Assembly (NCBI GenBank): GCA_015501595.1
Contig: JADNRX010000125.1
Coordinates: 62,001 to 126,000, forward strand
Reading direction: 5' to 3'
Length of the DNA stretch: 64,000 nt
Source: Hymenopellis radicata
Lineage: Eukaryota > Basidiomycota > Agaricomycetes > Agaricales > Physalacriaceae
Part shown: positions 1 to 26,629 of the stretch, piece after piece
Position numbering within the stretch: the stretch's first letter is position 1
Layout: every line of letters begins with the position of its first letter
Notes under the pieces: model-generated
What the model saw: the letters and a program-made list of their open reading frames with translations, nothing else
Told to the model about the DNA's origin: nothing
Databases searched by the model: none
Program-made: the position numbers and the translations under genes

Positions 1-174
1 ACCTTACCCGCCTACCCCTCCTTCCTGACAATGCCCTTGCTGCACTCCCCGATAACGCGTCTTTCGCTTGAAATGACTCTGGAGAACCTGGAGAGGCTTC
101 ATCCGGTGCCGTGTATCAGAAAACTAAGCGAGCTGGATCTGTTTCTGCGTCCTGGGCATACCTTGGATGGGAGG
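1..174 (+). pseudogene. 5' part of a leucine-rich (F-box/LRR-like) host gene, cut by the giant insertion
   Basis: The frame is open from base 1 and rich in leucine (ends ...LSELDLFLRPGHTLDGR), typical of the irregular leucine repeats of basidiomycete F-box/LRR proteins. The coding sequence stops because the first three bases of the inserted element (TAG, 175-177) form an in-frame stop codon. Codons gat-ggg-agg at the break continue in the same frame with ggt-tac-gat at 26630, so this is the upstream half of the gene whose 3' part is at 26630-27436. The gene begins before the window, so the N-terminus and any F-box cannot be seen. The rejoining is seen directly; the F-box/LRR family label is an inference from composition. 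Confidence 0.75.
167..174. repeat. 8-bp target-site duplication, left copy (ATGGGAGG)
   Basis: ATGGGAGG immediately precedes the left terminal repeat and recurs exactly at 26622-26629 directly after the right one. An 8-bp duplication is the hallmark of hAT transposition and has also been described for Zisupton/KDZ elements. Confidence 0.93.
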
Positions 175-191
175 TAGAGACCTCAACGAGT
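175..191 (+). repeat. Left terminal inverted repeat (17 bp)
   Basis: TAGAGACCTCAACGAGT matches the inverse of 26605-26621 at all 17 positions. It is the outer boundary of the giant element. Confidence 0.92.
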
Positions 192-350
192 AATACTCGG
201 ATCAGACCCGCGATCCGAGAGCCGAGTACTCGAGGCCGAAAGGGCATACTCGTGATCCGGAACTTACTCGATCCGCGCTGACTCGCGGGTCAAACGAGTC
301 GAGTACTCGCGAGTTTGGCGAGTACTCCTAGACGATCCGGGTCAGTTACG
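192..350. promoter_or_regulatory. Left subterminal ACTCG/GATCC repeat region
   Basis: This stretch is packed with overlapping short words ACTCG, CGAGT, GAGTACTCG and GATCCG in both orientations. The same vocabulary fills 26445-26604 at the other end and 4373-4530 in the second unit. Many hAT transposases bind clustered short subterminal motifs, so this is the likely transposase-binding region. The repeats are seen; binding is inferred. Confidence 0.6.
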
Positions 351-412
351 AGTCACAAATACTCGCGGATCAAGCTACATAATATTGTAATAAAACTGTA
401 CATAAACGACTA

Positions 413-3412
413 CTACTCATCAGATTTACCTCTCCGTGCGGCTTTTTCGTTGAAAATCCGAATTACTTGCTCGATAGGCACAAGGCCTGACTTGAACCAA
501 TCCTTCAGCACGACACAGGCGCGAACAGACTCATCCGAAAGGTTGAAACGATGTTTGGTGACCGTTAAGCCGGCCACCGAAAACATCCGTTCAACATCTG
601 TCGATGTAGCTAGACTGATCATCAGTAGAAGAATGAGATGGAATCAAGAAGCGAAGCATACCCGGCATGCTCAGAAAGTTCAACGCCATCAGCGCCAAGG
701 CTCCTTGCATTGTCATCGTGGTCTTACCCTTGTCGTCGGGTACATCCAGTAGAGCCGCCCAATAGCGGACTGGATCGACACAAGTTCCGACTGGCGGTGT
801 TGCCAGGTAATCCTCCAAGACGTCCACGGTCTGATTGAGTCCGAAGGTTGCTATGTGCGCAAACGGATTCGCCGCCGCCGCCTATAACTTGATGGTCAAT
901 AAAGATGCATAAATGATAATACAAAACATACCGGATCAGCAATAGCTGGTGGTGGCGGAGCCGGTACCAATGGTCGGTAACGTTGGGACCATTCATCTCG
1001 AACATGTTCCACAGCGGCGGTGATCCAATCTTGCGGCCAGTTCTGCGACACGAAGTACGACGTTTTGTAGCGAGGCATCATGACTAAAATAGATTTAGAG
1101 CTAGCAACGAATAGGAAACAGCGAACGTACCCATTCCGATTCGAATCATGATGTTATCGTCCGTCTTGGCGTAGTATTTGAGGATGGTTGCTCGACCGGC
1201 GGCGGCGGCGGCACGGATAACGGCAAGCTTCTTGGTGTCGATAATCACTTTGTCGAGGGCATCAACTAAGGCATCCATCGTCGGAATAGTCTCGTAGATC
1301 AGCGGAATCTTGGAACGACAGATCAGGTTCGAAGCCTGCACGAAAAGCTGTTAAAAACTCGAATTAGACTACAAATTTACAGAGAGCATTGGTGTAAATA
1401 CATGGAGAAGGTCCTTAAGTTGTTCAATCATAATCCACTCTCCGGGGGTGAGCTTGAACTTCCTGAGTTTCCGTTTCGCCACCTTGTTGAACTCCGGCAG
1501 TTTGCATAGAGCATCAAGGGGCTCTCGCAGCTCAAGGGCACGTTGGAGGACGGGGAAGAGAGAGTTCCAGCGAGTGGCCACCATTCGAATCATCTTCTTC
1601 GGCTTCATCTTCGCCTTGACACATTGAGCAGCGAGGGCCTCTTGCGTGACCTGGCTGTTGAACACGCGGTTACCGAGCTTCATAATCTGGAAGACATTAG
1701 ACCCGAAATACAGATAGAACGTAGCACATACCTTTGTGACAGCTGCTCTCGCAATCTTCCGGTCGTCCTCCGACAGCTGTTTAACCTCCTCCAAAGCCTC
1801 AATCAACTCATCCAATTCACCCTCGATAGCCGCCTCGCGATCCTGGTCCTGCTCGTCCATAGCCGAGAAGTCGGTGAGGGTGGGCATGTCCTCCTCGTCG
1901 TCAATATAAATGTTTCCCTCCTCGTCGAAGTCCTTGGTAACGTCGTAATCGTCGAGACCTTTCTTGATAAGTTTCTTTGAAATGAATTGCCGCATGACGG
2001 ACTGTCAAGGGTTAGATGAATAGACCAAGGACGAAGCGCCGATAAAGCATACCTTGGTTCCCAGGTCAATCTGATGCCCGCAACAACCAACAAAGGTTTC
2101 CTCCCCCACAGGACTGCTTGATGGTAGCATCTCTCCCATTTCCCGAACCATTGCTGGGTTGGTGTTGGCATTGTCGCCACAGAGACCGAGAAGTTTCGCC
2201 AGCATTTCGAAATCGTCCAAGGACTCGTAAGTGCGCTTGGCGAGATATCCAGCCGTGTGTCGCTCATGCAGACTATACGGCAGTTAGTCTCACCCAAACG
2301 ACTAAGTGTACCACTTACGGTACCATGTCCAGATTGATTTTATCAATGGCCGTCTTCACGGGATTGAAGAAAATCGCATTGAGACCTTGGCTCGACCGTT
2401 TCCCGCCTGAGGCCCAGCCGTCGAAGACTACATGAATGCGACCGGGAAGTGCCTATAGCCAACAGTTAGATTGAGGATATCGGCAGAAAGGAATGGATAT
2501 ACCTTGAGTTTCTCTTTAACGACTGCCTTCGTAATGTCGTACACCTCCTTAACGTCCTTCGAGAGGGTGTTCGCGGAGATGAGACGGGCGTTGGGCATGA
2601 GCATGCGAACTATTTCACGAAAAGGTTCGTCCTCGGCGAACGCAAACGGGCGAGCGCAAAGGGCAACTTCTTTGACAAGAAGGTAGCGAAGCCGCCCATG
2701 GGAGTATGTCGAACCATGTGCGAAGGCGATGATCGACGGCTGTTTACCCACAAGAGCCTTGCACGTCTGGACATGCCGGACCAGATTGCTGGTGCTAGTG
2801 TCGGTGAAAAGACGGGGAATCGACTCTTCATTGTTGCTGAGACACATCAGATGAGGCAGAATATACAAGACTACGCGACTTACTATTTGCAGATGAAGCG
2901 CATCCCCCATTTCCCGGTCCTCTCGTTATAGTCAACGACAGGTTCCAAGAAATGCTCGTAGATGGCGGAAGTCCAGCGTTTCGACTTGCGCACTAATGAA
3001 TAAGTTAGTACGTGTGTATACAGATTAATGTAGAACCTACCAAGCAAGGCCTTCCAATGGTCCTCGCTGTCCTCGTCAACGTCGTCGTCGATGGGCTCAA
3101 GCGTGCCAACAGAGGAGGTGTCGTCATCCACGTCCAGGATGTCTTCCTCCGGCTCGCTTGCAGGGCGACTCGAAAACTCTTCGACTTCGTCCTCGTCCCA
3201 GAACCAACTTCCTGTTCGATCTCCTTGTCGAAATCAAGCGGAGATGTAGCCCGCGAGCGACCGCGACTACCGCGACCACCGCGAGCACGACCACGAGCAC
3301 GCGTGGCTCTGGCTCCTCTGCCACCCCGACCGCGTTTAGCAGCGGGCTTAGAGGTCCCACCACGAGCAGCGCCCTCGGTAACAGTGTCAGCTCGAGTGCG
3401 TTTGGCAGGCAT
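413..3412 (-). CDS. BED-type hAT transposase, copy 1 (intron-containing)
   Basis: Cut-and-paste transposase of the hAT superfamily. From the start at 3412 the order is: a basic, Arg/Gly-rich and then acidic N-terminus; a BED-like zinc-finger region (STSNLVRHVQTC near 2770, the first cysteine partly lost at a splice site); FAHGSTYS; the first catalytic block FDGWAS (near 2415); the second acidic block GDNANTN (near 2175); the LTPGEWIMIEQLKDLL helix (near 1440); PRYKTSYF (near 1060); DPVRYWA (near 760); and the C-terminal dimerisation block STDVERMFSVAG ending at the stop at 413. At least eight 45-60 bp GT-AG introns are visible. A 1-nt shift relative to copy 2 near 3200 breaks the acidic region. 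The stop lies about 240 bp inside the left terminal repeat, as expected for the element's own transposase. Confidence 0.88.
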
Positions 3413-4355
3413 GGAGATGATAATGAGCAGTTCGACATAATCAAACTTTTATACCATGTCAGACAGGAAACGGAAATGGAAAACATACAAGACATACCAG
3501 TGTGAACTGCTGATTTGGGATGCAATCGATGAAGCTGAGCATTTGCATGTGCTCGAATAATGCACCATATGCTGTTATCGCAGGCTATTAGCAAGGAAAA
3601 AAATATACGCAGAGTGTAATCACCGAAAAGCTGTCAACGAAAATGCCAAGACGCGCGCATGAGAATCTACGGCAGAAAGTTAGGAAGAAATGAGGAACAC
3701 CTGGCCAAAAGGTACCTACCTCGTCCAATGGCGATGTATCCATCTATCGATGGCAGAACATTCCAGCGAGTTCTAAGCCCTGGACGGTAAGCCCTGGGCG
3801 CTCATCCGTGGTGGTGTGGCGTCCCAAAAAAGCGAAATATCCGAGATAACGGCTGGAGCCATCGATGGCAGAACGTTCGAGGAGGTCCTCCCCTGGGCGG
3901 TAAGCCCTGAGCGGTCGTCCGTGGTGGTGTGGCGTCCCGCAGAAGCGAAAAACTGCTGACAATCGTCAGACAGAAGGAACTGACAATCGTCAGATTCCCA
4001 TGAATATCCGAGCCCGAGTAGTCGTCCGGTCCTCCAGCGACACCCGGCATGGCTGCCTGACATCTGTCAGAGCAGCAGAGCTGACGATCGTCAGGCTCTC
4101 GGCATGCAAGAAGTGCCAGTCCCACCGTCGTGGTGGAAGCGGACAGAGTAACGGTCAACGTGACACAACGTTATGTCTCTGCAGAGCGTGACACAGACAC
4201 CCATGCCCGCGATCGCCGGTGGAATCAAAAATGATCTATCTAAGCTCAAAATCACACGCAGACACAAGGAATAGTAACAGATAAAATCGACTCGTATTGA
4301 GTACTATTGAAGTAAGTAAAGCATCCCCGGTTACATCAACGAATACGGCGGGATA
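3413..4355. promoter_or_regulatory. Upstream region of hAT copy 1: tandem repeat plus palindromes
   Basis: This is a non-coding stretch upstream of the transposase start. It contains two ~110-bp imperfect direct repeats (about 3744-3835 and 3858-3950) sharing TCGATGGCAGAAC, AAGCCCTG and GTGGTGGTGTGGCGTCCC, followed by four 14-bp palindromes (3956-4094). Past the palindromes no gene was recognised up to the unit boundary at 4355. Confidence 0.6.
3956..4094. promoter_or_regulatory. Two paired 14-bp palindromes (CTGAC-N4-GTCAG), hAT copy 1
   Basis: Four palindromic sites lie at 3956-3969, 3980-3993, 4057-4070 and 4081-4094. They form two pairs, each with starts exactly 24 bp apart. They are about 545-680 bp upstream of the transposase start. 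The same 24-bp-paired architecture appears in hAT copy 2 and four times at 10.0-10.7 kb. It looks like an operator for a dimeric DNA-binding protein contacting two neighbouring sites. The binding protein is unknown; the BED-finger transposase and cargo products are candidates. Confidence 0.75.
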
Positions 4356-4372
4356 TAGAGACCTCAACGAGT
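4356..4372 (+). repeat. Internal copy of the terminal inverted repeat
   Basis: Exact 17-bp copy of the left end at the start of the second hAT unit. It is flanked by GGCGGGATA, not by the ATGGGAGG target duplication, so it arose by duplication and not by independent insertion. Confidence 0.9.
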
Positions 4373-4593
4373 AATACTCGGATCAGACCCGCGATCCGAG
4401 AGCCGAGTACTCGAGGCCGAAAGGGCATACTCGTGATCCGGAACTTACTCGATCCGCGCTGACTCGCGGGTCAAACGAGTCGAGTACTCGCGAGTTTGGC
4501 GAGTACTCCTAGACGATCTGGGTCAGTTACGAGTCACAAATACTCGCGGATCAAGCTACATAATATTGTAATAAAACTGTACATAAACGACTA

Positions 4594-7592
4594 CTACTCA
4601 TCAGATTTACCTCTCCGTGCGGCTTTTTCGTTGAAAATCCGAATTACTTGCTCGATAGGCACAAGGCCTGACTTGAACCAATCCTTCAGCACGACACAGG
4701 CGCGAACAGACTCATCCGAAAGGTTGAAACGATGTTTGGTGACCGTTAAGCCGGCCACCGAAAACATCCGTTCAACATCTGTCGATGTAGCTAGACTGAT
4801 CATCAGTAGAAGAATGAGATGGAATCAAGAAGCGAAGCATACCCGGCATGCTCAGAAAGTCCAACGCCATCAGCGCCAAGGCTCCTTGCATTGTCATCGT
4901 GGTCTTACCCTTGTCGTCGGGTACATCCAGTAGAGCCGCCCAATAGCGGACTGGATCGACACAAGTTCCGACTGGCGGTGTTGCCAGGTAATCCTCCAAG
5001 ACGTCCACGGTCTGATTGAGTCCGAAGGTTGCTATGTGCGCAAACGGATTCGCCGCCGCCGCCTATAACTTGATGGTCAATAAAGATGCATAAATGATAA
5101 TACAAAACATACCGGATCAGCAATAGCTGGTGGTGGCGGAGCCGGTACCAATGGTCGGTAACGTTGGGACCATTCATCTCGAACATGTTCCACAGCGGCG
5201 GTGATCCAATCTTGCGGCCAGTTCTGCGACACGAAGTACGACGTTTTGTAGCGAGGCATCATGACTAAAATAGATTTAGAGCTAGCAACGAATAGGAAAC
5301 AGCGAACGTACCCATTCCGATTCGAATCATGATGTTATCGTCCGTCTTGGCGTAGTATTTGAGGATGGTTGCTCGACCGGCGGCGGCGGCGGCACGGATA
5401 ACGGCAAGCTTCTTGGTGTCGATAATCACTTTGTCGAGGGCATCAACTAAGGCATCCATCGTCGGAATAGTCTCGTAGATCAGCGGAATCTTGGAACGAC
5501 AGATCAGGTTCGAAGCCTGCACGAAAAGCTGTTAAAAACTCGAATTAGACTACAAATTTACAGAGAGCATTGGTGTAAATACATGGAGAAGGTCCTTAAG
5601 TTGTTCAATCATAATCCACTCTCCGGGGGTGAGCTTGAACTTCCTGAGTTTCCGTTTCGCCACCTTGTTGAACTCCGGCAGTTTGCATAGAGCATCAAGG
5701 GGCTCTCGCAGCTCAAGGGCACGTTGGAGGACGGGGAAGAGAGAGTTCCAGCGAGTGGCCACCATTCGAATCATCTTCTTCGGCTTCATCTTCGCCTTGA
5801 CACATTGAGCAGCGAGGGCCTCTTGCGTGACCTGGCTGTTGAACACGCGGTTACCGAGCTTCATAATCTGGAAGACATTAGACCCGAAATACAGATAGAA
5901 CGTAGCACATACCTTTGTGACAGCTGCTCTCGCAATCTTCCGGTCGTCCTCCGACAGCTGTTTAACCTCCTCCAAAGCCTCAATCAACTCATCCAATTCA
6001 CCCTCGATAGCCGCCTCGCGATCCTGGTCCTGCTCGTCCATAGCCGAGAAGTCGGTGAGGGTGGGCATGTCCTCCTCGTCGTCAATATAAATGTTTCCCT
6101 CCTCGTCGAAGTCCTTGGTAACGTCGTAATCGTCGAGACCTTTCTTGATAAGTTTCTTTGAAATGAATTGCCGCATGATGGACTGTCAAGGGTTAGATGA
6201 ATAGACCAAGGACGAAGCGCCGATAAAGCATACCTTGGTTCCCAGGTCAATCTGATGCCCGCAACAACCAACAAAGGTTTCCTCCCCCACAGGACTGCTT
6301 GATGGTAGCATCTCTCCCATTTCCCGAACCATTGCTGGGTTGGTGTTGGCATTGTCGCCACAGAGACCGAGAAGTTTCGCCAGCATTTCGAAAATCGTCC
6401 AAGGACTCGTAAGTGCGCTTGGCGAGATATCCAGCCGTGTGTCGCTCATGCAGACTATACGGCAGTTAGTCTCACCCAAACGACTAAGTGTACCACTTAC
6501 GGTACCATGTCCAGATTGATTTTATCAATGGCCGTCTTCACGGGATTGAAGAAAATCGCATTGAGACCTTGGCTCGACCGTTTCCCGCCTGAGGCCCAGC
6601 CGTCGAAGACTACATGAATGCGACCGGGAAGTGCCTATAGCCAACAGTTAGATTGAGGATATCGGCAGAAAGGAATGGATATACCTTGAGTTTCTCTTTA
6701 ACGACTGCCTTCGTAATGTCGTACACCTCCTTAACGTCCTTCGAGAGGGTGTTCGCGGAGATGAGACGGGCGTTGGGCATGAGCATGCGAACTATTTCAC
6801 GAAAAGGTTCGTCCTCGGCGAACGCAAACGGGCGAGCGCAAAGGGCAACTTCTTTGACAAGAAGGTAGCGAAGCCGCCCATGGGAGTATGTCGAACCATG
6901 TGCGAAGGCGATGATCGACGGCTGTTTACCCACAAGAGCCTTGCACGTCTGGACATGCCGGACCAGATTGCTGGTGCTAGTGTCGGTGAAAAGACGGGGA
7001 ATCGACTCTTCATTGTTGCTGAGACACATCAGATGAGGCAGAATATACAAGACTACGCGACTTACTATTTGCAGATGAAGCGCATCCCCCATTTCCCGGT
7101 CCTCTCGTTATAGTCAACGACAGGTTCCAAGAAATGCTCGTAGATGGCGGAAGTCCAGCGTTTCGACTTGCGCACTAATGAATAAGTTAGTACGTGTGTA
7201 TACAGATTAATGTAGAACCTACCAAGCAAGGCCTTCCAATGGTCCTCGCTGTCCTCGTCAACGTCGTCGTCGATGGGCTCAAGCGTGCCAACAGAGGAGT
7301 GTCGTCATCCACGTCCAGGATGTCTTCCTCCGGCTCGCTTGCAGGGCGACTCGAAAACTCTTCGACTTCGTCCTCGTCCCCAGAACCAACTTCCTGTTCG
7401 ATCTCCTTGTCGAAATCAAGCGGAGATGTAGCCCGCGAGCGACCGCGACTACCGCGACCCGCGAGCACGACCACGAGCACGCGTAGCTCTGGCTCCTCTG
7501 CCACCCCGACCGCGTTTAGCAGCGGGCTTAGAGGTCCCACCACGAGCAGCGCCCTCGGTAACAGTGTCAGCTCGAGTGCGTTTGGCAGGCAT
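4594..7592 (-). CDS. BED-type hAT transposase, copy 2 (intron-containing)
   Basis: Same exon-intron layout and motifs as copy 1: FDGWAS near 6597, GDNANTN near 6357, LTPGEWIMIEQLKDLL near 5620, DPVRYWA near 4945, STDVERMFSVAG near 4770, stop at 4594. It differs in the N-terminal low-complexity stretch. Around 7300 one G is missing and around 7460 two bases are missing relative to copy 1, whereas the C run near 7380 has the extra base that keeps copy 2 in frame where copy 1 is shifted. An added A near 6392 lies at an exon end. Each copy therefore carries different small frame breaks, in GC-rich or homopolymer sequence, so sequencing error must be excluded before either is called dead. Confidence 0.85.
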
Positions 7593-8536
7593 GGAGATGA
7601 TAATGAGCAGTTCGACATAATCAAACTTTTATACCATGTCAGACAGGAAACGGAAATGGAAAACATACAAGACATACCAGTGTGAACTGCTGATTTGGGA
7701 TGCAATCGATGAAGCTGAGCATTTGCATGTGCTCGAATAATGCACCATATGCTGTTATCGCAGGCTATTAGCAAGGAAAAAAATATACGCAGAGTGTAAT
7801 CACCGAAAAGCTGTCAACGAAAATGCCAAGACGCGCGCATGAGAATCTACGGCAGAAAGTTAGGAAGAAATGAGGAACACCTGGCCAAAAGGTACCTACC
7901 TCGTCCAATGGCGATGTATCCATCTATCGATGGCAGAACATTCCAGCGAGTTCTAAGCCCTGGACGGTAAGCCCTGGGCGCTCATCCGTGGTGGTGTGGC
8001 GTCCCAAAAAAGCGAAATATCCGAGATAACGGCTGGAGCCATCGATGGCAGAACGTTCGAGGAGGTCCTCCCCTGGGCGGTAAGCCCTGAGCGGTCGTCC
8101 GTGGTGGTGTGGCGTCCCGCAGAAGCGAAAAAACTGCTGACAATCGTCAGACAGAAGGAACTGACAATCGTCAGATTCCCATGAATATCCGAGCCCGAGT
8201 AGTCGTCCGGTCCTCCAGCGACACCCGGCATGGCTGCCTGACATCTGTCAGAGCAGCAGAGCTGACGATCGTCAGGCTCTCGGCATGCAAGAAGTGCCAG
8301 TCCCACCGTCGTGGTGGAAGCGGACAGAGTAACGGTCAACGTGACACAACGTTATGTCTCTGCAGAGCGTGACACAGACACCCATGCCCGCGATCGCCGG
8401 TGGAATCAAAAATGATCTATCTAAGCTCAAAATCACACGCAGACACAAGGAATAGTAACAGATAAAATCGACTCGTATTGAGTACTATTGAAGTAAGTAA
8501 AGCATCCCCGGTTACATCAACGAATACGGCGGGATA
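7593..8536. promoter_or_regulatory. Upstream region of hAT copy 2: tandem repeat plus palindromes
   Basis: This duplicates 3413-4355. It has the same ~110-bp imperfect tandem repeat (7925-8131) and the same four 14-bp palindromes at 8137-8150, 8161-8174, 8238-8251 and 8262-8275, again as two pairs with 24-bp spacing. No coding sequence was recognised. Confidence 0.65.
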
Positions 8537-9305
8537 AGGCCCAATATCCTCAATCTCAATCTCACAACCTTCCACCGTCATAAAAACCCTCTCGTCTGTA
8601 AGCTGATAAGACTAAGATAACCAGGATATAGATCATGCATCAGCACGAGCACGAGTACGGTCCGGAACGGACGCATACGAGTGCTCGTGGATGTACTGGT
8701 GAAGAGAGAAGTGAGATGTAATAAACCTGACCAAAACACTGGATGCCTCACCATAAGAAAACGGCGGAGCCGACTGTCCCCGTACTTTGTGAATCAAATG
8801 TTTAAGCTGTTAGCGTTTGAATCGTCACATCATTACGCGCCCCATGACCCGACGTCCCGACGTCCCGACGCCCATCGACACCCATGCTGCCCCAGACCTG
8901 ATGGTGTTGAATTTAGCAATGCGGAGTGAAATGGATGATATACATACATCGAACAGCACGAGTACTGTCAGGAAAGGACGAGTACAAGTGCTCGAATCTC
9001 CAGAAGCAAGCTGGATAAGAAAAAGTTAGTTGGTCTGGAGAGGTGAAATCCAGAAACTCAAAATACTAACGGTTCATGAACGGCGGCTCCGGTAGATCCA
9101 GATCTTTGTAGATCGCTTAGTTAAAATATGACTCTTCGGATGATCCATAGGTTTGGCGGCACAAGATGCGACATCCCGCCACGCCGCCCACCATCCCGCC
9201 CAAATGTCATGTTGAGAAACCGCGCGGGGCGCACAAAGAGTAGATGATTCTGTTCGCTCTGGAGCACGAGTACTGTCCTGGAAGGACGCATACGAGTGCT
9301 CCAGG
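8537..9305. repeat. Three hairpin-bearing repeat units with ~310-bp period
   Basis: Related inverted-repeat motifs occur at about 8642-8688, 8952-8996 and 9264-9303. Each has the form (GAG)CACGAGTAC...TCC-N4-GGAC...GTACGAGTGCTC-like arms and sits ~309 bp from the next. Between them are diverged copies of sequences such as gacatcccgcc and catcccgcc. The CGAGTAC core resembles the subterminal words of the element ends. No convincing gene was found. Confidence 0.6.
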
Positions 9306-10010
9306 CCGTAGGTAGAGGCTGGCCAACAAAAATGCTTAATGGTGGAATTGTAAAACTTGAAATACTCACCGTGGATGAACGGCGGGCTCGATGGCCTTGA
9401 GACCGCGTCGAAATTCATGAATAGATGGGAATCTTCGATTCGTCGCGTCGTTACCCGCCCGCATGCTGACATCCCGCCCTGCCGCCACCCATCCCGCCGA
9501 CTCGATATTGGCATGACGGACTAGATGAGATTTTTTAGAACAAAAATCGGAATAAGGACAAGGACTTACTGTAGAACACATGTATCGAAAGATCTTGTTT
9601 AAATCTGCAAAGGCAGATTCGAACAAACTAGTTGTTTTTATAGGTTACAGAAACTTAAAATACTCACCGTGGATGAACGGCGGGCTCGATGGCCTTGAGA
9701 CCGCGTCGAAATTCATGAATAGATGGGAATCTTCGATTCGTCGCGTCGTTACCTGCCCGCGTGCTGACATCCCGCCCTGCCGCCACCCATCCCGCCGACT
9801 CGATATTGGCATGGCGGACTAGATGAGATTTTTTAGAACAAAAATCGGAACAAGGACAAGGACTTACTGTAGAACATATGTATCGAAAGATCTTGTTTAA
9901 ATCTGCAAAGGCAGATTCGAACAAACGAGTTGTTTTTGAGAGGTTACAGAACTCAAAATACTCACCGTGGATGGACGGCGGGCTCGATGGCCTTGGGACC
10001 GGCTCGAAAA
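9306..10010. repeat. ~299-bp direct tandem repeats
   Basis: The segment from CTCACCGTGGATGAACGGCGG at 9366 repeats at 9664 and begins again at 9963. Copies one and two are about 95% identical by eye across the whole unit. A diverged unit precedes at ~9070. On the minus strand each unit carries an open frame ending ...IEPAVHPR followed by a perfect GTGAGT donor-like sequence, so these could be duplicated exons of an unknown gene. I could not assemble a convincing protein. Confidence 0.7.
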
Positions 10011-10018
10011 TAGAGCCA

Positions 10019-10226
10019 CTGACGACCGTCAGATGGCGGCGGTTGACAGTCGTCAATCCGCAGATAGAGTGCAGCAAGTTCTTGTGGGCGTGCAGGAGGC
10101 GGTTGACCGACATAAGAGGAGACTTCAGAGAGATAACAGAGACATAGCGATAACGGAGACATAGCAAGCTGCAAGAGAGTTGGAGCCACTGACGACTGTC
10201 AGATGGCGGCAGTTGACGACCGTCAA
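10019..10226 (+). promoter_or_regulatory. Two paired palindromes, forward orientation
   Basis: Pair one is CTGACGACCGTCAG (10019-10032) and TTGACAGTCGTCAA (10043-10056). Pair two is CTGACGACTGTCAG (10189-10202) and TTGACGACCGTCAA (10213-10226). In both pairs the starts are exactly 24 bp apart and the spacer is ATGGCGGCGG or ATGGCGGCAG. This is the same architecture as upstream of the hAT genes, but with a conserved spacer and a TTGAC variant as second half. Confidence 0.8.
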
Positions 10227-10525
10227 TCTGCAAGATCAGAGTTGATGAGAGAGAGAGAGCGCGACCTTAATGAGAATGCGATCGTGTGTGTGGCTGTGCC
10301 TTGAGTTTGTACACCAGGCTTGTACAATACAAGCGCTTCTTCCCTCTGTCCAAGTTCCCTCTGTCTCTGTGTCGGCCTCCCCTCTATCTTTTTGCTCGTT
10401 GTTGTCGTTGGCGCCGTTCTTCTCGCCGCCATACGCCCAAGTGCCGTTGGCTTTTCTGATTTTCGTGAACTTTTGTGAGTAGATTTCTTTGTATTGTTCC
10501 CTCTTGTTTCCCTTTTCTCTGCGGA

Positions 10526-10657: not shown

Positions 10658-10847
10658 TGGCATCGATTTTCTCGATTGGCGCTTGCACATATGTGCTCTG
10701 CGCCAAATCGTCGTAGGGCCGTGGATGGGCCTATGTTCAAGGTGACGCGTTGTACTGACTGGGCTTTGACAGTCCAGACAACGCGTCTGATTTTCTGGTA
10801 CGCGCCTCTCCATTCTTTGCGCCGATTTACAGCTTTGATTGGTAGAT

Positions 10848-12713: not shown

Positions 12714-12731
12714 GTACAGTACAAGCGCGTA

Positions 12732-16362: not shown

Positions 16363-16529
16363 TCCAGGCGGAGAGGGACGGAAGGGAATTTTGCCATGAC
16401 TGGAGGCATCAACAAGTGGCTTTGACTTTGTTTATTGATCCCGGCTATCAGATATTTTCGAATACAAAAATGCGTATGATTGACTTCAAGACATAGATAA
16501 CGATAATGCTACAAGAGAGGCATGATAAA

Positions 16530-16972
16530 TCAAGCCGAGTTTTTCTTTGGGGCACCGCTCCTCTTAGGCTTTGGGAGATATCGGTTCAGCCGAAAATTGC
16601 CATCCAGGCGGAGGCTATCAAGGATGTTAGTTCTATACGTTACGCTGACGGCAAAAGAAGAGTACCTTGAGCTGCCTTTTGGTTGAGTAGGCACGCCGCA
16701 GTAGCATTGGGGACAGGAAGTGTCGTAGTTCGACCAGAATTGCTCCACGCGCTCTCCGTGGGTGTCAAAGCCCGGCGACAGTACATATCTAAGCCCAGTT
16801 GATGAGAGGAAATGGTCAGAGTAAAAAGGTCGTACCGTTCGCCTTTTTGCATGTCGACATCGTTCGTGTCCATGATGGTCAAGAGCGAGTTCTTTGGCTG
16901 CTCGCCAAATCGGGTCAAAGTCTCTTTGCCTAATCGGGACAGACGAGCAATTATGTGTTCAAGTTGTCTCAT
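16530..16972 (-). CDS. Small unrecognised gene between KDZ and orphan gene A
   Basis: Three exons can be joined with clean GT-AG introns. MRQLEHIIARLSRLGKETL...DVDMQKGER (start 16972) joins YVLSPGFDTHGERVEQFWSN...CPQCYCGVPTQPKGSS, then LRLDGNFRLNRYLPKPKRSGAPKKN, ending at 16530. The product is about 112 residues with a Cys-rich CPQCYCG segment and a basic C-terminus. Function unknown. Its upstream sequence (16855-17095) is duplicated at 17705-17950, in front of the 3' end of the next gene. Confidence 0.5.
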
Positions 16973-17095
16973 TCATACGAGCTGGCGAAGGATCAAGATA
17001 CAGATGAATCAGATATATAAGATATCTAAATGGTAAATACCAAACAAATAACGAACAAAAAATGTACGACTTCAAGATCCACACCCTAAATTCCG

Positions 17096-17695
17096 GGCGA
17101 GCTGGGAGTGGGGGGAGGCGGCGGCGTTGGCGGCCAGCTCATCCTCTCGAAGTCCTCGAGGAGACGGAACGTTACTCCTGTCTTGGGGTAGCGGCTAGTC
17201 GCAGGAAATACCTCGGCTCGAAGCATCTGCAAACGATGGGCCACACGATGCTCGCAGCCACAAAAATCAACGTTGACTTTGTGGATGCCATTACTATGGA
17301 GGATCATAAAATCGTTAGGACCGGGTTGAGGGTTGACGCAGGGATTCCCGTCATTGTGGCCGAGTTGCAGACGAAGACCGAGAGCGCGTAGAGTGACCCT
17401 CTCATGAAAAAGCCCGTTCCAGCGCTACAGACGACGTGTATTAGTGGTTGCTGAAGGGAATCGACACGCTAGAACATACCTGAATGCGATGAAAAGGTTT
17501 TTGAAGATGTCGGCGAAGAGTGCACGGAAGACAGTCGCGGACCGTTCCCCAACAGTCCTCACAACAATACAGAGCCTCCCTTGGAACCGCAAAACTCTGG
17601 GAGTCCTTGCATGAGATGCAGCATGGGCTGCTCTGATCCTAAGTCCTATGAGTTCCACGCGCGCGTTAACAATCATCTTGACGTACAGAGTTCTG
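17096..17695 (-). pseudogene. Chimeric fragment: tail of orphan gene A fused to a duplicated KDZ N-terminal piece
   Basis: Bases 17147-17695 repeat 15481-16110 of the KDZ gene (the LRLLEDFE..., NDFTILHSNGIHKVNVDFCGCEHRVAHRLQML and CxC2 exons), with ~70 bp deleted from the CxC2 exon. Bases 17096-17146 repeat the 3' end of orphan gene A (the Pro-rich ...PSSPGI). The piece lacks the catalytic core, start and stop, so it is a non-functional duplicate. The order shows that KDZ and gene A sequences were rearranged together inside the element. Confidence 0.8.
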
Positions 17696-17949
17696 GTCCG
17701 AGGAGACGTCGTTCGTGTCCATTGTGGTCAAGAGCAAAGTGCTCGCCAAATCGGGTCAAGGTGTCTTGCCTAATTGGGAATGGTTGGCGCGAGCACGACG
17801 AGCAATTATGTGATTTCTCAATCAGACGAGGTGGCGAAGGATCAAGATACTGAGATTACAGGTCGATAAGATATATAAGATATATAAATGCTAAATAACG
17901 AACAAAAAACGAACAAAAAATGTATGACTTCAAGATATATTTTCAGAAA

Positions 17950-19138
17950 TTACCACTCCGCACCATAAATTCCGGGCGAGCTGGGAGGACTCGGAGCGGG
18001 GGGAGGCGGCGGCATGGCAGCCAACTCAGCCTTAATCTTGGTGGTCCAATACACCACCTTCGCATTAAACCGGGCCTCCATCTCCGGAGAGTCCAAGAAC
18101 GGGGAGTCAGGAGTGCGACGTTTGACCCCACGGGGGGGCGTGGAGGGAGGCGTGTAGTCCGTTGAAGTAGCCGAGGTCGACGAGGAGGAGGAGGACGAAG
18201 AGGACGAGTCCTCATAGTCATCATCAGAAGATGACACATCGTCCTCGCCATCAGAAGAGGACTTGTTGTCCTCGTCGTTGTCGCGATCAGAAGACGACTC
18301 GGCGTCGTCACCATCGGAAGACAACTCGGCGTCGTCGCCATCGGAAGACAACTCGTCATTGTCCTCATCCATAGCAGATGAATCAGGGGATGATGGGTTC
18401 GCGGGGAGGTTGCAGAATACACGGCAGTTGTTGAGACATTGCTGTCGGAATCCGATGAGGACGATGTAGATAACGATGTCGCCGGCGTGTAGAGCCCATA
18501 TGTGGGGGCATTCGAGTAAGTGAGGGTGTTTGATGCTGTCATCCACAAAGGAATCGGCTGAGTTGGGGAGGAGCCGTCGACGTCGCCCTCCTCCGGTACT
18601 TTCTTGCGGGTGATAGGACGAGGACGTGGGCGAGGCCTGGTACCGGGAGCGTGATGCTGCACCAGGAGAGGGTTATGATAGATGTATGGACCGTCGTCGC
18701 CATATTTCTTGTATGACAAGTGCGTAACTGCCCATGCAAGTCCGCGACGAAGTAACTAGACAGTGATTAGATATAGTATTATATATGAGCTGAGGTAGAA
18801 CATACCTTGTTTCGTTCGGCGTAGCGGGTGATGTGCTCCTGACGTGTCTCGCCGAAAAGATAGGGCAGCGGGAACGTGATGTTGTAAGCCAGCGTATGGC
18901 GAAGTTTGAAGTCGCGCCAATCCTCGGCCTGCGTGTTCCACGCGTAGAACTGCCAGTGGGGGTTGGCCTGCATGGTGAATACGAACTCGCGACCCAGGCT
19001 AATCATATAGTCTTTTTGGTCGGCAGGGAAGCACTGCGAATGGGGTATGGTCAGTCACAGACGCGTCAAAGAGGAAAGTATGTTTACCGGGGGGAATGGC
19101 GGCAGCTCGTAGTAGATTCGGGGGAGATTGGAAGTCAT
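17950..19138 (-). CDS. Orphan cargo gene A (aromatic-rich N-terminus, Ser/Asp-rich tail)
   Basis: Function unknown. The start MTSNLPRIYYELPPFPPG is at 19138. Two clear introns separate this from CFPADQKDYMISLGREFVFTMQANPHWQFYAWNTQAEDW...YAERNK and from LLRRGLAWAVTHLSYKKYGDDGPYIYHNPLL. The tail has long Ser/Asp runs, STDYTPPSTPPRGVKRRTPDSPFLDSP and ends ...SPGIYGAEW at 17950. I recall similar proteins as multicopy families in mushroom genomes. The reading frame changes between about 18400 and 18540, either at a third intron or by an indel. The basic RGVKRR and acidic runs suggest a nuclear protein, but that is speculation. Confidence 0.65.
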
Positions 19139-19471
19139 TTTGACGCGTTTTTTGCTTCGTGGAGAGTGCAAGAGTGTGTATTGGGATGAAGAGGGAAAAG
19201 CGCGTCGTCCAGCTTTTTGTGAGCGGGTCCTCAAAATCTGGAGTCCGCAACTCAGCTGTCAGGCAAGGAGACGGCAGAGAGGAGCACGGACCTTCATGGC
19301 GACGGTGTTGCGATTGAAGACCGTGCTTCGATATTAGTATCCTGGCTGTCCGGTGCGATGTTGGTTACATAATGATGTTCGTCGGGGGGGCGGCGGTAGA
19401 GCTGGAGAGCTAAGATATGCATGAAAGACAGTTCAGACTCGGATGTATATGGAAAGAACGAACAAATACAA

Positions 19472-20145
19472 CTAAGACGTCAAGTAGAGAAGTTGACGCC
19501 TTTTCTTGGCCTTGCTTAGAGCGCCAGCCTGCGCATGCGTCCAAAGGTCCGCGACGTACTCGTAGACCCTCTGGAACCGGTCGCAAATCTCTTTGACATC
19601 GCGCCAATACGATGAATCAATGCCCGCCTCCTCCTGAATTTCGGCCAGGACGCCCTCGACATACCCTAACTTCTCGCGATAGATGTCCTCCTGCTCGCCG
19701 ATATACTGGCTACCCTTGTAGACGCCTTGCATCTCGTACTCGGAGACCATACTGGCGATGAAGGGGATAATGGCGTTGCCGGAGGTAGCTCGCAGCTCGC
19801 CATCGACTTGGCGCACTCGACGAGTCAGACGTTTGCACAGATTTTCGTCGAAGGTTCTAGCAGCATCTCCATCAGGCTGTTAAATGAACTGCAATGAAAG
19901 ATAAACGTACCGCGGAGCAGCCATCCTCAGAGCTTGCTGACGACGTTTCCTCCCAGCTTCGATGGCCTTCCTGTCGTAGCGCTCCTTCATGGCTTGGAGC
20001 AGTTCCTCGCGGTTCCTAGTATAATAGTGTTCACGAGTAGCCTAACAGGGTAAAAGGTAGCTTACTTGTGGTAGTACCGCCGCTTGTTTGCCTTCACGGC
20101 CGCCGCTTTGAGCTCTGGGGTGTCGTAGCGGATGGGGGGCGCCAT
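19472..20145 (-). CDS. Orphan cargo gene B (basic, helical, ~200 residues)
   Basis: The start is at 20145 (MAPPIRYDTPELKAAAVKANKRRYYHK). An intron beginning at 20066 joins NREELLQAMKERYDRKAIEAGRKRRQQALRMAAPR, and a second joins TFDENLCKRLTRRVRQVDGELR..., ending KAKKRRQLLYLTS at 19472. The N-terminal third is strongly basic with a KANKRRYYHKNREELLQ pattern that I recall at the start of many mushroom orphan proteins and that looks DNA- or RNA-binding. The rest is helical with acidic and aromatic residues. No known domain recognised. It lies in the same orientation as KDZ and genes A, C and D. Confidence 0.65.
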
Positions 20146-21248
20146 GGTGACAGTGAAAGGAGGGATCTGAAGGAAAATTAATCGTGCGTGCTGAACGAAG
20201 GAGACTGAGAGACTTGCCAAAAGAGGGATTCGGTTTTTTTGAGTGGTTGTTGAACGTTGAAGAAGGGTGGTGGAGGCAGGACCCAAAGTGAGCGATCCGT
20301 AAGGTATCTGCATTGGCTTTCGAGTTCACTAGACCTTTACTAGACCGTAACTCACAACCAGCTCTAAAAATTCCAACAAAATTGTAGAACTCTCAGATGA
20401 TTTATTTATGATTTTCTATGTCTTTATTGGAGCAATGGAGTCACGGTGACCAGTATAAAAATGTAACTCTGGCCGAAGGATATTGATGGACCCACTAGAC
20501 TTTATAGGACTTTAATGAGATCGTAAAATTATCTCGTGCTACCAATGTCAGGGCATAATGGGGACTGCGCGCAGTGCAAAATATAAGTGACGAGAGGTGT
20601 CGGACATGTATCCGAAGAGTACAGCATATGAGACGCGGTATAGATGAGACGAAAACAGGGCAATCATCCACTAGACTTTAACTAGACAGATTCTGTTCAG
20701 TTAGCGTGTCGTAAGGGGGCACCCAGACTTGCCTTGTGATCAAATCAAAACATACATAACATGGATTTCCAAGTGGACCGAGGGGTGAATTGGGCGTGCT
20801 ACTTGTCAGAACATCCGAATGATGTTCTGATATTTCCCTAGACAGTATAGATTTGGCCCATTACGCGAGGTCCGAATGACTAAAGACGGTGGCACTCACT
20901 TGACAGACTGCCATAGATCAAACTGTCCCTTCCTGGGAGCGGGAAAGGGCCTTAGATACCCAGAAATCGCCACAGCCATACGCGCTGGTGACTGTCGGAG
21001 GTGAGTTCGGAAGTACGTTCCGCCGGCTTAATTAGGCATATCTAATCACTTTCGAAGCACAGTTGCCACGTGTACGATCCTAAAGCAGCGCGGGCGGTGG
21101 AAGATATTCGATTGAGTGAGCCGTGCAATATACATTATAAAATAACTACGTCGTATGTCGCGGTACCACAAGACAGACTACAAATACAAAGCTCAGTACA
21201 AGAAATAGCCTACGGGCAAGCAAGGATATATCTAAATAGCGACATCTA
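20146..21248. other. Gene-poor spacer with three CACTAGAC repeats
   Basis: No gene recognised. A motif CACTAGAC(C)TTTA...CTAGAC or GGAC(TTTAA) occurs at 20328-20348, 20493-20515 and 20669-20687, spaced ~165-176 bp. The rest is unremarkable AT-balanced sequence. Confidence 0.5.
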
Positions 21249-22218
21249 CTATTCCGGGGAAGAAAGAGACAAGCCCGACGCGCTCCAGCCAGGAATGTCG
21301 CCCCAGGTGTCGCCCCAGGGACTTTCCCGAGGTTCTTGAGGTTCTTGATGGGGGGCCCTCCAACCATCCGGCGAAGGTGTGCGCGACTTGAAAGGACCCA
21401 TACGCCATAACGAATCCGTATTCGGAGCGACTTCCGCATCCACGGGTACCTGCTCCCACCAGTTATAGTGCCTGCGGTTCCCTCCGGGGCTCCAGGATCC
21501 AGACGCCCAATCCGCGGGCACGAGCGGCCATGCAGTTGAGCCATCGCCGTACGGCGGCTCCCTGGCCTCGCGATAGTATATCGGCACTTCATCATCCGGC
21601 TCCGTGTCCAACATGTAGAACCAGGTCGACACGCCGTTAGGAAGCGCTCGAAGGTCGTGTTCATCCTTTTTCTTGGAGATGTACTCGTCCTCCGGCAGAG
21701 ACGACAGATATGATGTGACGAGCTCTTGCTCGACCGGATCGAGGGCATCATCCAAGCCCATGCGCCCCATAGCGGATTCCACAAGGTCGACGTCGTCAGG
21801 GAAGGCTCCGGTCGGGCACCACGAGTTGAATGCCGTTAAGACGACCTAAATGGGGTCAATCGGTGTTAGGAGGAGGATGCAAAAACACGTACCTCACGAA
21901 CAGCTGACTGTTCGGACTCGGAAACACCAGTGCGCCAATAGAGCGACGGGAGGAAGACATTCTCCACGAAGTTGAGATCATATTCGTGTTTGAGGGACGT
22001 TGCGTAGCCGGCGAGATGTTGTCGGACAAGCGAAGCTTGGAGGGCAGAGAGAACGTGTCCAGACATTTGATATCGATCTGGATCATGACTGTAAATAGAC
22101 GAACGATCAGAATAATGAAAACTTACCAGAGTTTTGGGTGACAAGTTCTAGTTTGGTGAGTGTGCGAAGGAAAGCTTGTTGAGAGCGTTACCTTGACGCC
22201 GAAGGACGAACGTTCCAT
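21249..22218 (-). CDS. Orphan cargo gene C
   Basis: Function unknown. The best-supported exon reads MSGHVLSALQASLVRQHLAGYATSLKHEYDL...SAVRE (to ~21892), joined by a clean intron to VVLTAFNSWCPTGAFPDDVDLVESAMGRMGL...SLSSPE, ending at 21249. The second exon is rich in Trp and Tyr (WWEQVPVDAEV, WGDTWGDIPGW) and has a conserved-looking ALPNGVSTWFYMLDTEPDDEVPIYYREA. An upstream mini-exon starting at 22218 (MERSSFGVK) is possible, but I could not make the phases of the intervening introns agree, so the start is uncertain (alternative 22066). Confidence 0.5.
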
Positions 22219-22677
22219 CGATGAACGTGCGTAGTTGATGAACGTGCGTATAAATCTAAAAAAGCAGAGAAGAAAGATTCAAAGCTCAGAATAAAGATTC
22301 AAAGGTCTGAGGTAGAGATGTCCCTCGTAGTTCAATGGCTTTATGGCTGGGCTTCCTCGTAATCTGGGAAGCCTCGGTTCGAACCCCACCTGCGTTAGAC
22401 TATTCGGCACGTCGCTAATATCTTTTTGGGTAGTACGGGTTTGTGAATTTTGATTTTTCAATACACGTTCCACGTTGAAACCCCCCCTTCCCCAAAAAAG
22501 GCAAAACCAGGTCGTACAGTCGCCCTGGGTCCGCCTGGCGGCGCCCCAAGACGACGTGTACGGAGAGTTGGAGACAACAATGTATAAGTTAAATATATTA
22601 ATTTACATGTAGCAAGATAGCGAATAAAATATAGTGCGATAATATACAGGTAAGAGATCAAGATGGAGTTAAAACGA

Positions 22678-24954
22678 TTACAGCATGCAGCCCAATGCCC
22701 ATTCAACGTCCTGAACCGCCGCAAGCCATTCCCCGTGGCCAAGAACATCATCCTTGCACACAACGCCCCACCAGGCGAGGAGTGCAAGAATGCTCCAATG
22801 TCCATTGACTCCACTGGTGCGAATACTTCCCCAGGATCTTCCCGCCGGCTCAACACGATGCTGTTCCCTAAAGGGCGCATCTGTGGTTTTGACACCACGC
22901 CATTCAGGCTGTAGAGCGGACCACCACGTCCAAAATTCAACCCGGAAAGTGAAATGATCGCTGCCGGGGGTGTACTCAACTGCCCGAGCGCGTTTGTTCC
23001 ATGCCGCGATACATGCTGGCCGTACTTTGTGGGTTGGTAGAGGTTTGCCGTGGGAGTAGCTCTGGCTCTGCTCGAATTTGCCATATATGTCGACAAGGCG
23101 CGTCCACTCTGGCCCAAGAGCGTACGAAGTAAGGTGTTGACGCGCTTCGATTACGTATGGCGGCTCTGGCACTGGCGACTCTGGCACTGGCGGCTCTGGC
23201 GCTGGCGGCGAGGGAGGTGGAATCGAAGGGCATCTCGGAAGAGGTGGTTGTACGTTCAAGAATTGAGTTGGGTGGGTCGAATCACCCGGACCATTTACTG
23301 GGATGAACGATGAGGAGAGAAGGGTCGGGTCTATGGCGGCATTGGTGATGTTGGAAAGAACACCGCCGGGACGTAACCCCACAGGGGCTTTTGATGCTTG
23401 GAGTCGGTTGGATTGACGAATGTCCCGCGAAGGCGTCGTGTTACCGGGCGGCGTATTCCCACCATCCTCCTCCTCCTCCTCGTCCTCATCCGCCTCTTCG
23501 TCTGGCTCCGACGCACGACTCGCAGCACGTTTCTTCCGTCCCTTGGCATTTGGCTTGGTAACGCGTTTACGTTTCGGAGATGGTTTCGATGGATCCACAG
23601 GAGAGTCGAGTTTTGGGGGAAGGTTGGGATCGATGTTCCAAGGATTCTCCTGGAGTACGAACCAAGGTGCCTTTGCAGGCGCAGAAACACCGGGCAGCGA
23701 GCGCGCTTGTTGTTCGGCGACGGCTATTCAATAGATTAGAGACATTTACACAAGAGGACAAAATTTACGCACTGAAACAGCCCATTCCGAATTCGCCAAG
23801 AGCAGCTTGGTAGCACTTGTGGCGACGCTTGCCACGATCACCGTCCGCCTCATGGAAAAGTTTGGGAGTCGCAGACTTGTCATATCCGACGTTAATTCTA
23901 AGGCAGAGAGATTAGATTATAAGACGACGAAAGAATGAGAAACAGCGTACGTGAGGACGTTTACCTGGCCACCTTTCCTAGGCTCAGGCCCAACCCAAGA
24001 GAGAGAGACATTGCCGCCAAGCAGGGTTGAAATACCCTCTAGGAGGGGCTGAAGCGAGGTTGGAAGTCTATCCAATGCACTATCTTTGTGTCAGTACACG
24101 AAGGAAGATGTGATCGCGGGGACTTACGCCTGCGTTTCTTCAGGGGACAGCAGCGCGACGGGCCGTTTGGCAGCGTCCTTGCCCTTGGCGACTTCAGCTG
24201 CGTCAGTGGCAGCTCGTTCCTCCCAATACAGCTTTTCTTCGGCACTTAAATCCTCAAACGTCGCTGCCGCGAATTGGCCAGCTGCAGTGAGTCGCTCAGA
24301 ACGCGACTTGCCACTTTTCTCGAACGATTGGTTGAATTCCTCGCGCGACGGTCCGAATTTTTCGGTCGACCACATCTGCTGAGGCGTGCGCCCTCGCTTC
24401 CTGACGACGTCAACTCCGGCGACTTTGGCAAGAAGAGCGGCAACGGGATCCTTCGCGACCTGGGCTGGCGTCATTTTGGTGATGGGTGTTGCTTTATTCC
24501 AGCGGGTCTCAAAGTAATTATGTATGCCCTGTGAATCATGAGCTGTATAGAAAAAGAAATGAAAGCCACGACGTACCGTGTGCAGCCGATTCAAAATGCC
24601 CTTCTTGCGTTCCGCGTCGATGTCAGAAAGAGGGGCCTCAGCGGCAGTCGACGTCTCAGCGGCAGTCGACGTCGTGGCAGCATTTGGAGCCGGTTCCTGG
24701 TCCAATGGAAGGTCCCAAGGATAGAGGGTCAAGAATTGCCGATAAACAGAGTCAGAGTACTCCGATCCTTCAGCTTTACTGCGTCGCCGGGCTTGTTGAA
24801 AGGCGGGCATGTGGCTCTCGATAAAGGCTAGGCGAGAACCCTTGAGCCACCCCTTGCGGAACACAGGGAACGATGTGGAAATTCTGATTGGACATATCAT
24901 CAACCACATGGCCGGAGATATCAAAGATCAGGGCACGTACTGATTGTCAGACAT
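22678..24954 (-). CDS. Orphan cargo gene D (large, HMG-like middle, WW/DVEW C-terminal region)
   Basis: Five or more exons join from MSDNQ at 24954 through ISTSFPVFRKGWLKGSRLAFIE, a 14-residue duplicated TSTAAE stretch, RGRTPQQMWSTEKFGPSREEFN...LSAEEKLYWEERA (HMG-box-like helices), ALDRLPTSLQPLLEGISTLLGG, INVGYDKSATPKLF and AVAEQQARSLPGVSAP. It then continues to a basic, acidic and proline-rich linker and a C-terminal segment with FWTWWSALQPEWRG, SGVNGHWSILALLAWWG and VQDVEWALGCML, stop at 22678. The product is roughly 690 residues. I recall this architecture from abundant Agaricomycete hypothetical proteins. A chromatin or DNA-binding role is only suggested by the HMG-like part and basic linker. 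No break seen. Confidence 0.65.
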
Positions 24955-25585
24955 TATAACTCTGAGTGAGTAACGCGAAATAACACGAAGACGACGCGCT
25001 TTTCGAGAGGTGGAGGTGTATATCAACAATCCGAATGCGCGTAAACAAGCATTTCATAGCAGGAGCAAACAGTTCATTTAATATGAACTAATCGGGATGG
25101 TACCATAAATAGAATAGTGTGCTTGAACGAGCGAAAAGCCGCTGGCGCAGCGTCGACAGAGCAGACGTTCAAATGCGACAAGTATGCTATTGTACATCGA
25201 GGCTATTCAATGCTTAAAACATACATTCATGCTGAACCCGGCGAGCCGCATAGTATTAGCCCATTTTGAGCGTGGGAAAAGCGCCTGGCGGGCGGCGGTA
25301 CATCCAGGCGCATCCAGCGCATTTTCACACCTTACGAACCGGAGTTTGAACGCAAGGGGATAAGGGAATGCCTGCACGCTGCTGCAATCTGAGCAGCCCG
25401 GCGCGTAGCCAGAACGAGCCAGCGCGCTAGCGCCCGCCGCCATGAAACGAGGTATGCCGAGGTGCCGTGAACGAGGTGCCGTGAAATCGATGCCGCTGAC
25501 TAAGTTGAGGCGGATCGAGGATTCGGAATGAATTTAATACCCAGTACTTAAAAGACATTTTGCGGTATTCACTGGAATGTAAGCA
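24955..25585. other. Intergenic stretch between cargo genes D (-) and E (+)
   Basis: This is a divergent promoter region. I see no repeat, gene or palindrome pair of the kind found at 4, 8 and 10 kb. Confidence 0.4.
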
Positions 25586-26335
25586 TTGACCGTGGGAAGA
25601 CCTAGGGTTGGGGAGGCCCAGTTTAGGGTTGGCCATTTCGTGGTTATAGCCATAAAAATGGCATTGGGCTCTGTGGTTATAATCTTGAGAATACCCCAAA
25701 AATTACAGCCTGGCCTGGAAGAGGTTGACAAGCTGGTGACGGCAGCAGAGACGGAGATGACGGTTGAGTTGCTGGAGGTTGGGATGTGGAATGGGCGGCC
25801 CTTGACATCGACAACAACCGAGAACGGGAAACGGGATGTTTTGGAGATTGTGTGGGAGGCGAATGAGCTCGCGTTTCGAATGGAGTTGGCTTCCTTGTGC
25901 CTTCACCTGTGCCGTCCCGAGCATGTGGACAGCCGGAAGTTCATGCAGGCCGTGTCTCTTTGTTTCCCCCTCGGTGATGCGCCTCTCGGTCTGGTTGATC
26001 TCGGTCAGGCAAATCAAGGACTTGCAGACCCGGATTGGTGGAGTCGGGCCCGGTTCGTGTATGCGCTGAAGAAGGTTATGGACTTGTGGCGTATTTCATC
26101 ACCGTATCCTGCACCGGATTCTGATGTGCAGTTTGGCAAGACGGGGTTCACACGGGAGGAAATGGAAGCGTTCACGGCCACCATCTTCGCACACTATATC
26201 GGGAACTTCTTCCAGGTGTTCGGTCGCCCTCCTCGCCTTCCGATGAACCTTCCCTTCGAACCACAGACGTCATGGGTGCCTCCGGTGTATTTCAATCAAC
26301 GTGGAAAGGCAGATAGATGGGTACCAAGGTTGTAG
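25586..26335 (+). CDS. Orphan cargo gene E, adjacent to the right end
   Basis: A single open frame of up to 250 codons. The recognisable part begins near the ATG at 25658 (MALGSVVIILRIPQKLQPGLEEVDKL) and continues VELLEVGMWNGRPLTSTTTENGKRDVLEIVWEANELAFRMEL...GLADPDWWSRARFVYALKKVMDLWR...FTATIFAHYIGNFFQVFGRPPRLP, ending at 26335. I recall similar orphan proteins in mushroom genomes; no biochemical function known. The stop lies about 285 bp inside the right terminal repeat. It is one of only two cargo genes on the plus strand. Confidence 0.65.
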   Translation: MTVGRPRVGEAQFRVGHFVVIAIKMALGSVVIILRIPQKLQPGLEEVDKLVTAAETEMTVELLEVGMWNGRPLTSTTTENGKRDVLEIVWEANELAFRMELASLCLHLCRPEHVDSRKFMQAVSLCFPLGDAPLGLVDLGQANQGLADPDWWSRARFVYALKKVMDLWRISSPYPAPDSDVQFGKTGFTREEMEAFTATIFAHYIGNFFQVFGRPPRLPMNLPFEPQTSWVPPVYFNQRGKADRWVPRL

Positions 26336-26444
26336 TAGTTAGGGCTGCGGACATGTATGTACTATTTAGGACTTCCGGACTTTTTTTTGCGCTGCGTGTA
26401 CTTCATAAAATTTGTATTTTTTTGGTGCTCTCTGGTCTGATTTC

Positions 26445-26604
26445 CCGCGAGTCAGACAGAGTACTCGCGACGAGTACTCATGCCTCCAAGGCCGTACTCG
26501 CGATCCGCATGTGATCCGACTCGTTATCGATCCGCGGATCAAACGAGTCGGATCACCGAGACCCCCGACCGGATCAAGTACTCGAGTTTCCTTGTGATCC
26601 GGAA
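26445..26604. promoter_or_regulatory. Right subterminal ACTCG/GATCC repeat region
   Basis: Repeated GAGTACTC, ACTCGCGA, GATCCGAC and GGATCAAACGAGTCGGATCA words mirror the left subterminal region. An ATG at 26480 opens a frame that runs through the terminal repeat into the downstream host gene half. Confidence 0.6.
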
Positions 26605-26621
26605 ACTCGTTGAGGTCTCTA
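26605..26621 (-). repeat. Right terminal inverted repeat (17 bp)
   Basis: ACTCGTTGAGGTCTCTA is the exact inverse of 175-191 and is followed directly by the target duplication ATGGGAGG. Confidence 0.92.
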
Positions 26622-26629
26622 ATGGGAGG
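26622..26629. repeat. 8-bp target-site duplication, right copy (ATGGGAGG)
   Basis: Identical to 167-174. It marks the right junction of the giant insertion. Confidence 0.93.

Follow-up and report, generated by a model that had tools for sequence, protein, structure and literature searches.

A hAT element inside a host gene

The window analyzed here is a stretch of 64,000 nucleotides (C280:62001-126000) from the 75.5-Mb assembly of the agaric Hymenopellis radicata, and the genomic comparisons below were made within this one assembly. It contains a hAT-ended insertion of 26,447 bp (positions 175 to 26621) which lies in a host gene between two copies of the 8-bp target duplication ATGGGAGG, at 167 to 174 and 26622 to 26629. 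The outer ends are perfect 17-bp terminal inverted repeats, TAGAGACCTCAACGAGT on the plus strand at 175 to 191 and its reverse complement, on the minus strand, at 26605 to 26621. The latter is the only right end, whereas a second left end, also on the plus strand, is found at 4356 to 4372. With up to three mismatches the window contains three occurrences of the 17-mer, against 0.10 expected from shuffled sequence, and with up to two mismatches the assembly contains 676 (343 + 333, versus 1 + 3 for a reversed control). Among the fetched loci, the 15 adjacent pairs of exact 17-mers less than 1.6 kb apart (963 to 1,207 bp) were all flanked by 8-bp duplications, 14 of them perfect and one with a single mismatch, and the 15 duplicated sequences were all distinct. 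The inverted ends and the target duplication had both been recognized in a first-pass annotation of this DNA, which had also anticipated dispersed copies with the same ends and different 8-bp flanks; such copies are numerous.

The interrupted gene is on the plus strand, its left part at 1 to 174, ending with ATGGGAGG, and its right part at 26622 to 27436, starting with it. As the annotation had claimed, joining the flanks with a single ATGGGAGG copy restores an open host frame, which runs through ...LDGRGYDM.... Three paralogs (C727, C718, and C1157; 70 to 71% DNA identity) each span the join in one gapped alignment stretch, the alignment covering joined positions 1005 to 2127 with the join at 1500/1501. 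A Pfam scan of part of the host protein gave no family, the one match (E = 0.18) being below cut-off. The insertion had also been called recent, which is plausible since the nearest copies of the element, C140 and C895, are 99.2 to 99.9% identical to it over the pieces compared.

A hAT transposase gene with 11 exons is encoded on the minus strand at 413 to 3412 (copy a). Copy b, on the same strand, is placed approximately at 4594 to 7593 by shifting copy a by 4,181 bp. Copy a has one single-base indel, in exon 1; copy b contains several, and others again occur in C140 and C895. These indels may be sequencing errors. With exon 1 taken from C140 and the remaining exons from the window, the transposase has 843 amino acids. 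It contains the hAT dimerization region (Dimer_Tnp_hAT, PF05699) above cut-off (E = 1.9e-8) and matched Hermes weakly in a PDB search (E = 0.005 to 0.007), while Pfam gave no match to an N-terminal BED zinc finger. TAGAG is a usual start of hAT ends. The element shares with the hAT superfamily (Ac/Ds, Hermes, and fungal hAT elements) the 8-bp duplications, the short inverted ends starting with TAGAG, the C-terminal dimerization region, and the abundance of short nonautonomous copies, but it adds a second, divergently oriented gene by its right end and forms a unit of about 8.9 kb. In C895, the transposase gene contains at about 14255 to 14690 a different small element, an insert of about 0.4 kb that has short inverted ends and is accompanied by a duplication of TTTAGTCAT.

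Nesting and a tandem repeat as the probable source of the length

The second (accessory) gene lies on the plus strand at 10848 to 26335, divergent from the transposase gene, and has one intron of 50 to 52 bp. Its 696 codons are open in C140, C895, and C799; in the window, two lesions break it, the insertion of a nested element and, upstream of that, a single-base indel. The nested element occupies 12377 to 25717 (13,341 bp) between direct copies of a 7-bp target duplication, GAAGAGG, on the plus strand at 12370 to 12376 and 25718 to 25724. On its minus strand it encodes a KDZ transposase domain (PF18758, 14274 to 14900, E = 8.7e-33) and a CxC2 cysteine cluster (PF18803, 15380 to 15760, E = 1.8e-40). 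Its termini, 5'-CA..TG-3' (CACCC...GCCTG), have no inverted repeats, and the subterminal stretches are only loosely similar by eye. The insert site is uninterrupted, with an overlap of 7 to 8 bases, in all six relatives examined (C140, C895, C799, C775, C505, and C80).

The remaining extra length is a direct repeat of the left 4,181 bp of the hAT element, with unit a at 175 to 4355 and unit b, 99.7% identical and beginning exactly with the second left terminal repeat, at 4356 to 8536. In C140, which has one unit, the counterparts of window positions 189 to 4355, 8537 to 12376, and 25718 to 26621 adjoin directly, with neither repeat nor insert, and the element measures about 8.92 kb, counting 14 bases missing where the contig ends. 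Subtraction from the window gives practically the same figure: 26,447 bp less 4,181 for the repeat, 13,341 for the nested block, and 7 for the duplication around that block leaves 8,918 bp. A left end repeated in tandem and a nested KDZ (Kyakuja-like) transposon, which has a target duplication of its own, make up the additional length, and the single 26.4-kb giant element with cargo that the annotation had proposed is not borne out.

We propose that an approximately 8.9-kb two-gene hAT element entered the host gene and was enlarged there by a tandem duplication of its left end and by a nested Kyakuja-like insertion, a reading to which we assign a probability of roughly 0.87. The two-gene element would have inserted by cut-and-paste, creating the 8-bp duplication; its left 4,181 bp would then have been duplicated in tandem, the breakpoint coinciding precisely with the left end; and the 13.3-kb KDZ transposon would have inserted into the second gene, generating the 7-bp duplication. 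Some results weigh against this account. The uninterrupted host allele that the annotation had suggested looking for was not found in the assembly, where the window itself was the only full-identity match to the right flank. Most of the differences between units a and b are single-base indels, and the 4,181-bp repeat could for that reason be an assembly error. Nor did any copy turn up that carries the tandem repeat alone or the insert alone, so that the proposed order of events is tentative. Lastly, at 13 of 19 diverged second-gene loci (see below) no transposase was detected in the expected place at the sensitivities used.

Had a true giant hAT, with the repeat and the Kyakuja-like element already inside, moved whole into the host gene, it would equally show intact outer ends with a perfect 8-bp duplication around them, and the sequence itself does not tell which event came first. 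We nevertheless regard this as highly improbable: the assembly yielded no other copy of the whole 26-kb unit, the six relatives all lack the insert, and the tandem repeat is present in none of the copies examined. The same absence from the relatives and lack of another whole-unit copy in this one assembly led us to reject a single giant cargo transposon.

A perfect outer target duplication can, as here, surround a nest of unrelated insertions. A 26-kb cargo hAT would have rivaled the Starships, which this element does not. The likeness to Starships (PMC12134995 and others) is that of a large fungal insertion; the element differs in having a hAT transposase at its end and not a tyrosine recombinase, in owing its length to nesting, and in its basidiomycete host. 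The annotation had seen no tyrosine recombinase, and we agree: the left-end gene is a hAT transposase, and the open frames scanned, which do not cover every exon, showed no recombinase family (DUF3435). Starship membership was rejected on these grounds. ToxhAT/ToxTA, a class II element of 14 kb that was formerly assigned to hAT, is likewise large and has nested transposons inside; according to PMC12506042 its duplications are TA, its ends are 74 bp long, and it has been reclassified, in contrast to the 8-bp duplications and 17-bp ends found here.

Origin of the tandem left end

The tandem repeat could most simply have arisen by self-insertion followed by recombination. A sibling copy would have landed at 4355/4356 of the element; recombination between the two right parts, identical in sequence, would then have produced the tandem arrangement of the left 4,181 bp. 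Alternatively, the repeat might be an assembly error or the product of abortive alternative transposition, a process which in maize Ac/Ds makes tandem duplications and composite insertions, as described in PMC3744419 and PMC4270019. The near identity of the two units, with many of their differences being single-base indels private to one of them, would fit this alternative, and the maize structures are similar in that they, too, combine hAT ends with tandem partial copies of the element, although here the duplicated stretch lies inside the element itself. However, the breakpoint is placed to the base at the terminus of the left end, a position which an artefact would have no reason to choose, and at window position 1998, the single site of its kind, unit b matches C140 while unit a matches C895. 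On balance we consider the alternative unlikely and favor self-insertion with recombination.

Two related two-gene elements were also found in tandem in C504 (C504:1-8420), with right and left ends of the 17-bp type 12 bp apart at 8146 to 8191. This was the only such place in the assembly for exact 17-mers separated by a gap of 0 to 30 bp. The family also inserts into itself: inside the C895 element, at 8609 to 9744, lies a short copy of 1,136 bp that has these 17-bp ends and is flanked by an 8-bp duplication.

The nested KDZ element

Two Kyakuja families with 7-bp duplications, CA..TG termini, and no inverted repeats are described by Kojima (2025; PMC12730594, section 3.2.1). The KDZ transposase, 7-bp duplication, and CA..TG termini of the nested element agree with that section, and by these marks, together with the CxC2 domain, it is probably Kyakuja-like. 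The assignment to Kyakuja rather than to Zisupton or Dileera is provisional and rests on domains, duplication, and termini. The nested element differs from Kyakuja as presented in that source in that no TET/JBP gene was found in its open frames scanned. At least 166 KDZ domain matches are present in the assembly. The interior of the block gave only short matches elsewhere, with identities up to about 80%, in a search that skips very common words and so does not prove the block to be rare.

A 484-bp stretch, including CxC2 coding sequence, is present twice in the nested element (15481 to 15964 and 17145 to 17628; 96% identity). A diverged relative of the nested element lies in C154 (3484 to 13776) and has a pair of 17-bp hAT ends inside, at 7278 and 8287.

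A conserved second gene

The second gene is under constraint among element copies: C140 and C799 differ by 36 synonymous and 14 replacement changes, with a ratio of replacement to synonymous substitution rates (dN/dS) of 0.12, and for C895 against C799 the ratio is 0.11. In a comparison that ignores introns, stops interrupt the C775, C505, and C80 matches. No Pfam family was found at E ≤ 10 in four annotated relatives of the second protein, and a predicted structure model gave no significant fold match and no functional lead. In three protein searches, each of which scored about 8,000 candidates, Hymenopellis accounted for 4 of 4, 7 of 9, and 4 of 7 matches, the non-Hymenopellis ones being from Armillaria luteobubalina (27% identity), Desarmillaria tabescens (26%), Lyophyllum shimeji (25%), and L. 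atratum (26%); a 345-amino-acid JGI protein (28%) was a further match. Similar proteins are presumably also present in other Agaricomycetes, none of which appeared in these searches. Upstream of the gene, at 9353 to 10009, there is a 298-bp tandem repeat (2.2 copies), kept in the relatives.

To examine the association of this gene with hAT elements we counted 19 diverged second-gene loci, excluding close copies; their best matches were mostly at 36 to 46%, with C464 at 33% and C1019 at 26%. A hAT transposase or dimerization region was present in the expected divergent place at 6 of them (C504 twice, C643, C810, C1197, and C1087). The distance from the end of the second gene to the same 17-mer was about 430 to 465 bp at C504, C810, and C1197. 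A second end sequence, TAGAGCATRCCACRAGTTT, occurs 129 + 122 times in the genome (0 + 0 in the control) and is found in the right orientation about 430 to 680 bp from the second-gene end at C754 (twice), C675, and C505, among the 100 of 251 matches listed. TAGAGCATRCCACRAGTTT was derived from C754 and C1087, so that the independent tests are the second C754 site, C675, and C505 only. At C1087, the nearer copy (330 bp) is wrongly oriented and a rightly oriented one is 880 bp away. The TAGAGCATRCCACRAGTTT sites near diverged second genes are C754:31461, C754:43320, C675:23098, C505:4798, and C1087:2265 and 2815. Apparently, these ends belong to another hAT subfamily.

The second protein may help the element, either as part of the transposition complex or by allowing it to escape silencing. 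It might instead be a passenger that a hAT picked up from an agaric host gene family and that plays no role in transposition. The relatives in Armillaria, Desarmillaria, and Lyophyllum, at about 25 to 27% identity, would be compatible with such an origin, as would the diverged loci at which no transposase was detected. We find the passenger explanation doubtful given the low dN/dS among element copies, the constant position and direction of the gene by the right end in loci bearing one or the other of two end sequences, and a divergent pairing that persists to about 40% protein identity. The gene raises the question of whether some hAT elements need, or benefit from, a second protein.

Apparent exchange of the second-gene block between hAT lineages

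A block at 9168 to 26314, about 3.8 kb without the nested element, holds the second gene and appears, by sliding identity, to have been recently exchanged between two hAT lineages. In 300-bp steps, C140 and C799 are 54 to 86% identical up to element position 4800 and then 93 to 99% identical to about 8600; the final 286 bp fall to 79%. The same step was seen against C775, C505, and C80, with right parts at 91 to 100%, 92 to 98%, and 88 to 96%, respectively. As controls, C140 and C895 were 99 to 100% identical throughout with no step, and C799 showed none against C775 or C505 except for one 300-bp dip to 64 to 67% near position 4500. The transposase halves of the two lineages have only about 70% DNA identity. 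Because noncoding sequence within the right block (94% between C140 and C799) is as similar as coding sequence, recent exchange would explain the pattern better than constraint alone.

Agaric hATs may, more generally, be a two-protein system in which the transposase is accompanied by a helper of a new family. The helper gene would be kept by the right end in two or more subfamilies (those with TAGAGACCTCAACGAGT and TAGAGCATRCCACRAGTTT ends), and the cassette would be traded between lineages as divergent as those above. We advance this tentatively, at odds somewhat short of even. If true, a hAT family with a conserved second gene moved between lineages would parallel the TET/JBP genes exchanged by fungal transposons. 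Section 3.1.2 of PMC12730594 describes TET+ hAT7 of Puccinia, likewise a fungal hAT with a gene besides the transposase, and that paper, too, infers that the added gene moved between transposon lineages. In those elements the added gene is a TET/JBP dioxygenase and the duplications are of 7 bp; the gene described here, by contrast, lacks a Pfam family, and the duplications are of 8 bp.

To the right of the element, the window also contains an approximately 1-kb direct repeat with 82% identity, at 53671 to 54676 and 62504 to 63535.

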